Shown here one piece after another: positions 61,425-63,636 of a DNA stretch of 64,000 nt; position 1 is the stretch's first letter; every line of letters begins with the position of its first letter. The stretch covers positions 2,745,001 to 2,809,000 of the forward strand of contig NZ_CP104002.1 in the NCBI RefSeq assembly GCF_029201565.1, read 5' to 3'. Position numbers and translations under genes: made by a program. The notes beneath the pieces were generated by a model. That model saw only the letters and a program-made list of their open reading frames with translations, did not search any database and was not told where the DNA came from. The stretch comes from Devosia sp. SD17-2 (lineage in GTDB: Bacteria > Pseudomonadota > Alphaproteobacteria > Rhizobiales > Devosiaceae).

Positions 61425-61501
61425 GGTCCCGTAGCTCAGCTGGATAGAGCAGCAGCCTTCTAAGCTGTTGGTCACAGGTTCGAATCCTGTCGGGATCGCC
61501 A
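61425..61501 (+). tRNA. tRNA-Arg(TCT)
   Basis: A 77-base cloverleaf: GGTCCCG acceptor, CTCAGCTGGATAGAGC D-arm, anticodon loop CTTCTAA (TCT), GGTTCGAATCC T-arm and encoded CCA. The recombinase gene begins two bases later, so the tRNA 3' half is the probable integration site. Confidence 0.97.
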
Positions 61502-61502
61502 A

Positions 61503-62510
61503 ATGTTTTCAAGCACTTACACGTCAAACGCCGCTACCACGCTTCCTGCCCTTTCGCTTCAGGGTAACACAAGGGTAACCATCGGCGACGAGAATCGTCC
61601 TATCGGCCTGAGTTCCCGCCGATATGCCCAGGCATCCAAAAGCGACGCCACGTTGCGCGCTTATGGCGCTGCGCTGCGCTCCTTTGAGGCCTGGTGCAAG
61701 GGGTTTGATCTGGTGGCCCTGCCTGCTGAAATCTCCACCGTCGCGGACTTCCTTTCAGCTGAGGCTGACAACGGGCTTAGCGTTTCCACCATAGCCCAAA
61801 AGGCTGCGGCGATCCGATGGGCGCACAAGACCGCTGGCCTACCCTCCCCGACTGAGGCAGAAGCTGTCCAGAACGTCATGCGGGGCATTCGACGGTCCGT
61901 CGGCGTGGCGCCGAGGCAGAAAGCCCCGGCGACCGCAGAGTGCATCCTGACCATCCTGGCGCACGTTCCTGCCACGACACTGGTAGGCAAGCGCGACCGC
62001 GCCCTCTTGCTCCTCGGTTTTGCCGGCGCCTTCCGGCGCAGCGAGATCGCCAGCCTGATGGTCGAGGATCTTGCCTTCGGAGAGAATGGCGTCGACGTGA
62101 CGATCCGCAAGAGCAAAACGGACCAGGAAGGCCGTGGCCAGGCCGTCGCCATCCCACATGGTGTGCACCTCAAGCCCGTTGAAGCGCTGCAGGCATGGCT
62201 CGCTGCGTCTGGCATAAAGAGCGGCCCGGTATACCGCGCCGTCAGCCGTGGCGACAAGATGGGCAGAGAAGCCATTACCGGCCATACCGTCGCCAACGTG
62301 GTCAAGCGCTACGCTGGCAAGGCAGGGCTAGCCGTGGCTGATTTCAGCGGACATTCGTTGCGCGCCGGCTTTGTGACCTCGGCAGCCGATCGCGGCGCCG
62401 ACCTCAACCGGATCATGGACGTATCGCGCCATGTGGACCCGCGCACCGTCCGCACCTACATTCGCCGAGCTGATCGGTACAAGGATCACGCTGGCAGCAG
62501 CTTTCTTTGA
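61503..62510 (+). CDS. tyrosine recombinase / integrase
   Basis: The 335-residue tyrosine recombinase has an N-terminal SAM-like core-binding domain at about residues 35-130 (TLRAYGAALRSFEAWC). The catalytic domain has Arg near residue 178 (GAFRRSEIASL), Lys near 204 (RKSKTD), His-Arg (GHSLRAGF, about 282-286), a second His (SRHVDPRTV) and the Tyr nucleophile (VRTYIRRAD, about residue 318). It starts directly after tRNA-Arg with no room for its own ribosome-binding site outside the tRNA. It is the likely integrase of an element lying to the right. Confidence 0.92.
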   Translation: MFSSTYTSNAATTLPALSLQGNTRVTIGDENRPIGLSSRRYAQASKSDATLRAYGAALRSFEAWCKGFDLVALPAEISTVADFLSAEADNGLSVSTIAQKAAAIRWAHKTAGLPSPTEAEAVQNVMRGIRRSVGVAPRQKAPATAECILTILAHVPATTLVGKRDRALLLLGFAGAFRRSEIASLMVEDLAFGENGVDVTIRKSKTDQEGRGQAVAIPHGVHLKPVEALQAWLAASGIKSGPVYRAVSRGDKMGREAITGHTVANVVKRYAGKAGLAVADFSGHSLRAGFVTSAADRGADLNRIMDVSRHVDPRTVRTYIRRADRYKDHAGSSFL

Positions 62511-62573
62511 CGTAACATGACTATCGCCTTCGACTGAGAATCGAATAGCCATTGCTTAGCTGGGAGGAGCTGC

Positions 62574-63422
62574 ATGACTATTTGCGTCGGCGTGAAGGTC
62601 AACGACTGCATTGTTTTCGTGACCGACAGCGCATCATCTATGCTCACCAAAAATGAGGCAGGCCAGGACACTGTTGTGCGCGTGTACAACCATGGCGACA
62701 AGATATTCAACCTTTTCCGCGGCTTGCCCATCGTCGCGATGACTTGCGGCCTGGGTAATTTTGGACGGCAGTCGATCAGCACTGTGGTTAAAGGCATTCG
62801 CGCCGAAATGATGCAGCCAGAGTCTGGAGTGTCGCCAGACAACTATACGATCGAGCAGGTCTCTACCTTCGTGTACGAGAGGTTCCTCGCCAAGTTCGAG
62901 TTGCTCGACGAGCGGGTTCGCAACGAAGCGTCGTTCGAATTCTTCATTGGGGGCTATTCTGCCAATGCAGACGAAAGCGAGATATGGAAGTTCCAGTTCT
63001 CTCTGGGCACCATCAGCGCACCTCAATGCATTCTTGGCGCTGGGTTGAGCGACGTCGTATGGGCTGGCCAGCCTGAAGCCTGCATCCGGCTGGTGCTAGG
63101 CGTGTCGTCCGCAACTTTCGGCGCTCTCAAAGACGCTGGCCTTACTGACGAGCAAGCCCATGCACTGCAGCAAAACATCATGCGTAACTCTGCCGCAATT
63201 GTCATAGAGCCCGCTATGCCTGTACGTGACGCCATCGATCTTGGACGATTCCTGGCCCAGACGACGGTTTCGTTTACCAAATTCTTACCTGGCGTTGCGA
63301 CCGTGGGTGGAGAATTGGACATCGCGACTGTAACCAAATTCGAAGGCTTCCGTTGGATAAAGCGAAAGCACTTCTATCCGCGTGACCTCAATCAGGAGAC
63401 TGACCATGTCGGGCAAAGCTAG
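62574..63422 (+). CDS. proteasome-fold Ntn-hydrolase, uncharacterised group
   Basis: The 282-residue protein begins MTICVGVKVNDCIVFVTDSA. Counting Thr2 as residue 1 after Met removal, Asp falls at 17 as in proteasome beta subunits and HslV. The proteasome Lys33 equivalent is in NHGDKIFNL (Lys43). Further family-like strands are IVAMTCGLGNFG and FFIGGYSANADESEIWKFQF. It is longer than HslV or Anbu. A strong GGAGGAG site precedes the ATG. It lies directly after the integrase and overlaps a 59-residue gene, so it is a cargo gene of the element. Peptidase activity is inferred from fold residues only. Confidence 0.8.
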   Translation: MTICVGVKVNDCIVFVTDSASSMLTKNEAGQDTVVRVYNHGDKIFNLFRGLPIVAMTCGLGNFGRQSISTVVKGIRAEMMQPESGVSPDNYTIEQVSTFVYERFLAKFELLDERVRNEASFEFFIGGYSANADESEIWKFQFSLGTISAPQCILGAGLSDVVWAGQPEACIRLVLGVSSATFGALKDAGLTDEQAHALQQNIMRNSAAIVIEPAMPVRDAIDLGRFLAQTTVSFTKFLPGVATVGGELDIATVTKFEGFRWIKRKHFYPRDLNQETDHVGQS

Positions 63423-63585
63423 TGATACCAAACTGGAAGCGAAGCCGTTCCAGCCTACGCGAATGCCAGCACTGCAGTATCAAACTCCGATAAAGGCACC
63501 TCAGGGGCTGAACTCAGCTTCTGCCTCTCAGGCCCAGCGAACGCCGAACCTGGACCTTTCAAACGTGGTTCTCAACCTGAACTGA
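63406..63585 (+). CDS. 59-residue protein, partner of the Ntn-hydrolase
   Basis: I do not recognise this protein. The ATG at 63406 lies inside the end of the Ntn-hydrolase gene and has an AGGAGA site eight bases upstream, so it is co-translated. The product is low in complexity (Lys/Pro/Gln/Ser-rich: SGKASDTKLEAKPFQPTRMP...) and ends LDLSNVVLNLN. It looks disordered with a hydrophobic C-terminal tail, which would suit a substrate, adaptor or activity regulator of the hydrolase; that is inference. An intrinsic terminator follows. Confidence 0.7.
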   Translation: MSGKASDTKLEAKPFQPTRMPALQYQTPIKAPQGLNSASASQAQRTPNLDLSNVVLNLN

Positions 63586-63608
63586 AGCTGCCAAACCCTA
63601 ATCTTTAT

Positions 63609-63636
63609 TTTCGATAAACGTCATTATCGAAATTTT
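63609..63636 (+). terminator. intrinsic terminator of the Ntn-hydrolase operon
   Basis: TTTCGATAA and TTATCGAAA form a perfect 9-bp stem with a 6-base loop followed by TTTT. Confidence 0.85.

Follow-up and report, generated by a model that had tools for sequence, protein, structure and literature searches.

The subject of this analysis is a pair of overlapping genes at 62574–63585 of the window, i.e. the whole 64,000-nucleotide stretch of the Devosia sp. SD17-2 genome that was analysed (contig NZ_CP104002.1, positions 2745001–2809000; genome G000, 4.23 Mb), in an integrative element inserted at a tRNA-Arg gene. The first gene encodes a 282-aa hydrolase of the proteasome fold and the second a 59-aa partner; the pair is read here, with a probability of about 0.5, as a mobile enzyme-plus-adaptor module, and together with the toxin genes found behind it in other lineages it suggests a new kind of enzyme-controlled toxin switch. 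The two-gene layout proposed by an initial annotation of the sequence is borne out, the two frames overlapping by 17 nt and each having a good ribosome-binding site (RBS). The features of the pair, all on the forward strand, are the following.

62562–62569: RBS GGGAGGAG of the enzyme gene, 4 nt 5' of its ATG (sequence)
62574–63422: proteasome-fold Ntn (N-terminal nucleophile) hydrolase, 282 aa, PMI type (open reading frame, fold model, sequence comparison)
62577–62579: codon of Thr2, predicted N-terminal nucleophile after removal of Met1 (Thr in 76 and Ser in 9 of 85 aligned rows)
62625–62627: codon of Asp18, proteasome Asp17 (85/85 rows)
62700–62702: codon of Lys43, putative equivalent of proteasome Lys33 (85/85 rows)
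62748–62750: codon of Gly59, probable oxyanion glycine and putative equivalent of proteasome Gly47 (85/85 rows)
63394–63398: AGGAG of the small gene, 7 nt 5' of its ATG, inside the end of the enzyme gene (sequence)
63406–63585: small partner gene, 59 aa, with the 17-nt overlap (open reading frame, locus survey, profile search)
63463–63483: MPALQYQ, near form of the partner motif MPxYxYQ
63550–63582: C-terminal tail of the partner, LDLSNVVLNLN
63609–63632: AT-rich hairpin with UUUUG behind it, a weak candidate for a terminator (-7.5 kcal/mol, z -2.1)

The hairpin, initially described as a dedicated terminator, is present, but it is weak and was not reported by the terminator scan; the promoter scan at the locus gave results at chance level.

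The enzyme and its small partner gene

The 282-aa protein is modelled with confidence as a proteasome-beta/Anbu Ntn fold, as the initial annotation had anticipated, and the active-site residues Thr2, Asp18 and Lys43 are present. All the 85 aligned enzyme rows have Thr or Ser at position 2; homologues retain Asp and Lys invariantly, Thr2 in 76 rows. Membership in the Ntn hydrolases is based on fold and active site, the PF00227 match of the enzyme (12.8 bits) lying under the Pfam cut-off of 22.4; a crude text pattern for the Thr/Ser-Asp-Lys start is matched by 113 of the 120 proteins listed. PADLOC, NCBIfam and PHROG models gave no match to the enzyme, except for a C-terminal match to PHROG 5990, and a PDB sequence search gave none. 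In the structure comparison of the enzyme model (50 rows) identity to the Anbu chains listed is 12–15%, and neither HslV nor BPH nor connectase is among these 50 rows, which is not evidence against kinship.

Twenty-two new groups of proteasome homologues, with limited functional clues, were described by Fuchs, Alva and Lupas in 2021; in the accessible part of that report (PMC8665760), an H3/H4 insertion characterises PMI-2 to PMI-6, and PMI-4, the sequence cluster of HDY66466.1, ranges over many bacterial phyla, Euryarchaeota and phages. The enzyme model contains such an insertion, with helices 181–187 and 192–206 between 168–175 and 217–236, as well as H1 and H2 (68–79 and 93–109), the helix numbering being that of the present analysis. 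The enzyme fits these PMI homologues in its proteasome-beta fold, in Thr1/Ser1-Asp17-Lys33, in the extra H3-H4 helices and in its spread over bacteria, Euryarchaeota and phages, so the group is already known in part; its subfamily is probably PMI-4, judging from the distribution across phages, Euryarchaeota and many phyla. Of the separate proteasome-like group claimed at first, the tie between enzyme and small partner gene stands, but the group is not entirely new.

The presence of the partner was surveyed at 92 loci from genomes and viral contigs, cited here by L numbers. Ten loci with partial matches were removed beforehand, and nine of the remaining 82 were left out (five with enzyme frames below 250 aa, four with less than 450 nt behind), leaving 73 testable loci, among them L081, a copy of L001. 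A small open reading frame (ORF) with an ATG start, 40–140 aa long and starting between -60 and +40 of the enzyme stop, is found at 73 of 73. As a control, ORFs of 200 aa or longer were picked mechanically within these loci, and 166 of the 646 have such a frame; at all testable loci of the core family, as initially proposed, a small gene thus accompanies the enzyme. In 7 of 12 close pairs of small genes dN/dS (NG86) is 0.12–0.62, and in 5 dS is saturated. Of 40 alphaproteobacterial-group partners, 22 contain the motif Y.[YF][QR], whereas shuffled sequences gave 0.45 on average and never more than 3; within these proteins of 54–69 aa it lies at residue 22.8 ± 1.5 (0-based); the partner in the window, with its near form, is not among the 22. 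Tails like LDLSGVVLNL are common to its nearest relatives, and short hydrophobic runs such as LQNIHF end other alphaproteobacterial partners. A profile built from 20 partners matched 12 database proteins with E from 8e-13 to 3e-4, at least three of them being the same records as query rows.

Two sets of more distant proteins deserve mention. The PHROG 5990 phage proteins, e.g. QQK88393.1 of Providencia phage PSTRCR_117lys, resemble the enzyme at the C-terminal end, begin in a proteasome-like manner and have a gene annotated as 58 aa directly behind, but they are ~430 aa long and tblastn from the protein of the window reaches residues 195–275 only. In PSTRCR_117lys itself (L097:4963-6446) the PHROG 5990 protein has 434 aa (431 aa as annotated), and the 58-aa gene lies 2 nt behind it, ahead of lysis genes. 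The weak matches L120-L125 are a different Ntn group of Methanobacteriota, ~308 aa long (L120 reaches 26 bits with PF00227), and were not counted as members; these enzymes are adjoined by a ~307-aa gene, which in L120 is an OGG/HhH-GPD base-excision glycosylase.

Toxin genes in third position

The gene behind the partner was surveyed at 74 loci with a partner, the copies L081 and L086 being left out and L092 having none in the narrower start range; at 71 of the 74 the sequence continues for 400 nt or more past the partner, and L009 and the alphaproteobacterial-titled L058 and L067 were counted outside the alphaproteobacterial group. A toxin gene comes next after the partner at 16 of these 71 loci, which corresponds to 16 of the 33 outside the alphaproteobacterial group. 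Thirteen encode PIN proteins (L035, L042, L046, L047, L051, L053, L054, L055, L059, L061, L062, L063, L068), and single loci encode RelE/ParE (L045), MazF (L043) and Doc/Fic (L075). The Pfam cut-off is passed by 15 of the 16, the PIN match of L051 being below it (17.3 vs 23.6), and the L075 gene is a death-on-curing toxin above the NCBIfam cut-off; L047 and L053 are two copies within one genome. No known toxin was found on scanning the third genes of L009, L038, L048, L049, L052, L083 and L092. Four unrelated toxin families (PIN, RelE, MazF, Doc) therefore occupy the third place across several lineages of bacteria and archaea, and the small gene stands where an antitoxin gene would be expected. 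The PIN-linked members L047, L051, L053, L054, L055, L059, L061, L062, L063, L068 and L110, mostly acidobacterial, carry Ser instead of Thr at the nucleophile position.

Wider genome searches added a PIN locus (L110, 31 bits) and six RelE-type loci of Methanobacteriota (L113, L114, L115, L117, L118, L119, the enzyme match of the last being partial). Together with L045 these make seven RelE-type proteins, which all match one another with E of 4e-5 or better; the ParE cut-off is passed by L045, L113, L114, L117 and L119, while L118 is below it, L115 has no ParE match and the NCBIfam matches of the seven are below their cut-offs. A different ORF lies behind the pair in L116, and at L126, L128, L134 and L135 the small gene is present and no toxin was recognised by eye. 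As side observations, genome G1319 encodes two distant PMI-like enzymes, L141 with MazF (80 bits) and L142 with PIN (30.7 bits), each toxin behind a small ORF, that of L142 in a partly masked region; in L112 a small ORF is followed further on by an addiction-module gene (PF09720).

Profiles for PIN, MazF and RelE were run over the 5433 ORFs of 80 loci (1.23 Mb). PIN matched 13 ORFs and MazF one, all directly behind an enzyme-partner pair, and RelE matched L045 and, in L054, an ORF at a distance of 6.7 kb; since the profiles were built from these toxins, they could overlook remote toxins elsewhere in the 1.23 Mb. A tree made quickly from 74 enzymes requires at least 7 changes for toxin presence and 8 for toxin type (six unclear rows left out); the starred branches alone require 4 changes for the label "none", several deep forks are open, and the long branches L142, L067 and L075 are of unsure place.

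The closest contrast is offered by L035 and L140, whose enzymes are 84% identical over 279 residues. The third gene is a PIN toxin in L035 and a DUF2726 gene in L140 (L140:314-1246, reverse strand, 28.9 bits), 51 nt behind the partner. The two partners, 92 and 64 aa long, align from the N-terminal end over 53 residues (43%), where the alignment stops; in this one pair, therefore, the enzyme-side end of the partner appears to be kept, and the other end to go with the third gene.

Distribution and the integrative element

Eight genome searches, with thresholds of 1e-20 (first four) or 1e-25 (last four), gave a patchy picture in which the seed genomes are included and some matches are distant paralogues. 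With the former threshold, matches were obtained in 5/297 genomes around an acidobacterial centre, in 14/151 around a Methanobrevibacter centre (six being the distant group L120-L125), in 2/249 and, among alphaproteobacterial genomes, in 2/289, the Devosia genome included; with the latter, in 6/236, 3/237, 1/238 and 2/239, the last sample overlapping that of 2/249. A protein search of the Devosia genome itself returned a single match to the enzyme, namely the gene itself.

The neighbourhood of the 38 alphaproteobacterial copies was sampled with 116 of 149 mechanically picked ORFs, the best 25 of 91 families being listed. Among the families listed phage integrases account for 3 of the 116 ORFs; the two genes co-occur, as the initial annotation had expected, but an integrase is not their constant neighbour. 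AAA_5 (2/116) and AAA_2 (1/116) form no pattern, and no search was aimed at HslU. No shared third gene was seen among the neighbouring ORFs of this group, and the pair therefore seems to form a self-contained cassette in it. DinB/ImuB-type polymerase ORFs were seen by eye behind the pair in two alphaproteobacterial loci (L004:3732-5120, L021:1385-2689), and the impB/mucB/samB C-terminal domain gave two matches among the alphaproteobacterial neighbouring ORFs scanned. In the Firmicute-type and phage-like loci L037, L040, L084 and L085, a holin-like gene lies near the pair (L037, L040, L084) or an amidase-like gene before it (L085), by eye; accessory genes of phages are commonly found at such a place.

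In the Devosia genome the tRNA-Arg element proposed initially is confirmed by an exact 53-bp repeat at the 3' end of the tRNA gene and 18.1 kb further on. Its features are given below, with positions beyond the window (L094) in window numbering.

61425–61501, forward strand: tRNA-Arg (TCT), integration site of the element (ARAGORN)
61450–61502, forward strand: attL, 53-bp direct repeat at the tRNA-Arg 3' end (exact match)
61503–62510, forward strand: tyrosine recombinase, 335 aa, left end of the element (PF00589, 57 bits)
70755–71486, reverse strand, outside the window: second proteasome-like ORF (L094:9755-10486)
78147–79469, reverse strand, outside the window: second integrase-like ORF (L094:17147-18469)
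79595–79647, outside the window: attR, exact copy of attL

The exact recurrence of the tRNA-Arg end at 79595–79647 gives an element of ~18.2 kb. One of its genes encodes a tape-measure protein (PHROG tail families), so that at least part of the element derives from a phage. The second integrase-like ORF, which has 440 aa and is by eye of the P4 type, adjoins attR; both ends of the element thus seem to carry a recombinase. The second proteasome-like ORF, located after the tape-measure gene, encodes 243 aa with M-T2, D18 and K34, the exact Thr1/Asp17/Lys33 spacing by eye; it has no Pfam match and only a weak PHROG match.

Interpretation and alternative readings

In the enzyme-plus-adaptor module the partner would be two-ended, its N-terminal half binding the Ntn hydrolase and its C-terminal tail binding an effector, i.e. 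the toxin where one is encoded. The hydrolase would cut or hold the partner, perhaps upon a signal, and the effector would in this way be held or released; in the toxin-less form of the window the tail LDLSNVVLNLN may have a target that is not encoded in the cassette, and the phage-derived element would probably benefit. The wider claim, put at slightly less than even odds, is of a new class resembling toxin-antitoxin systems, in which a proteasome homologue controls a two-ended small protein whose tail is exchanged so as to hold a PIN, RelE, MazF or Doc toxin, the toxin-less alphaproteobacterial and phage form being aimed at a target of the cell or of the phage.

Several results weigh against this interpretation. 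No toxin was recognised at the 38 alphaproteobacterial-group loci, nor beside the copy of the window, and the toxin control suggested by the initial annotation gains its support from toxin genes in other lineages; and as L140 has a DUF2726 gene, its contrast with L035 may be one of a toxin and another effector. Across deep lineages the partner sequences show only weak kinship: of 42 partners from other groups than the alphaproteobacterial one, 5 contain Y.[YF][QR] (shuffle mean 0.49) and 10 contain YQ, 8 of these 10 at 0-based positions 21–28; for YQ the shuffles averaged 3.9, and 2 in 1000 reached the observed count. A Gibbs search of 41 non-alphaproteobacterial partners scored above all 12 shuffles at both widths, and its motif was rejected as one shared by the partners, the acidobacterial tail dominating and another segment being chosen. 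Pfam revealed no known antitoxin family in the 8 toxin-linked small proteins scanned, PDB gave no match for 4 of these, and the distant relatives L111 and L136, an exception to the accompaniment seen in the core family, have no small ORF at the join.

The two-gene form is accounted for equally well if toxicity resides in the Ntn hydrolase and the partner inhibits it, i.e. a self-activating protease held by a plug peptide from the same transcript. Among the loci examined from Alphaproteobacteria and phages two-gene forms prevail, the partner gene overlaps that of the enzyme, the partner sequence is highly variable on either side of a central motif, and an enzyme encoded first with its inhibitor second would suit a coupled safeguard; the four unrelated toxin families in third place are left unexplained, and this reading is considered unlikely. 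Marginally less probable still is a protease or ligase for other proteins, of phage or host, in which the partner would be an assembly factor, an activator or a tag, and the toxins later additions protecting the cassette. The small low-complexity protein Pup is encoded with a proteasome subunit and ends in GG(E/Q); the 45–70-aa low-complexity partners resemble it, but that of the window ends in LNLN, without a C-terminal GG. Connectase shows that peptide ligation is possible with this fold and, in the accessible part of the same report, lacks helices H1 and H2 (PMC8665760), whereas the enzyme model has both; the cassette is found in an element and in viral contigs, which would suit such a role, whereas L035/L140 speak tentatively against it, since one end of the partner seems to change together with the third gene.

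A defence (abortive-infection) function in a phage-derived element, in which infection would alter the enzyme, the partner would be cleaved and growth arrested, appears improbable: the integrase-adjacent position, the toxin-antitoxin links and the patchy presence, e.g. in the alphaproteobacterial genomes, speak for it, while no PADLOC model matched the two proteins of the window or the three relatives scanned, and some copies lie among housekeeping genes. That the enzyme merely tends to adjoin toxin-antitoxin loci is very improbable, common and mobile as such genes are, given that all 14 PIN and MazF matches in the 1.23 Mb, albeit with profiles built from them, fall at one position behind the small gene and that the toxin-bearing clades are far apart on the enzyme tree.

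The enzyme-plus-adaptor module has partial parallels among known systems. In comparison to Anbu, HslV, BPH and connectase, the 282-aa enzyme is accompanied by a small gene and not by a known unfoldase. In TAC modules, as far as the accessible part of PMC5105189 describes them, the third protein likewise acts via a dedicated antitoxin segment, transferable between toxin-antitoxin pairs; there, however, a chaperone and a C-terminal segment (ChAD tail) are involved, in contrast to the Ntn hydrolase and the proposed N-terminal segment here. The COG2856/ImmA Zn-proteases with Xre and RosmerTA are also encoded with toxin-antitoxin genes including RelE and PIN, but according to the accessible parts of PMC2701414 and PMC10440598 they are metalloproteases, of unrelated fold, fused or linked to a helix-turn-helix antitoxin. 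For the PMI homologues the accessible part of PMC8665760 gives no informative genomic context, whereas a constant partner and recurrent toxins are found here; these are new, the enzyme group itself being already described. Among the matches listed for the open-licence literature (titles and abstract starts), none describes toxin-antitoxin operons that include a proteasome homologue; the accessible part of PMC13022661, in which the title of the 2021 report occurs, has no mention of toxin, Anbu, phage or genomic context, and those of PMC10354927 and PMC1779556 contain no such system.

If true, the proposed module would be the first functional setting for the uncharacterised PMI proteasome relatives, one group of which is given a testable role by the constant partner and the swappable toxins. 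Toxin-antitoxin loci, for which few third components are known, would gain one of the proteasome fold, and the finding would bear on the roles of proteasome-fold proteins before the proteasome.
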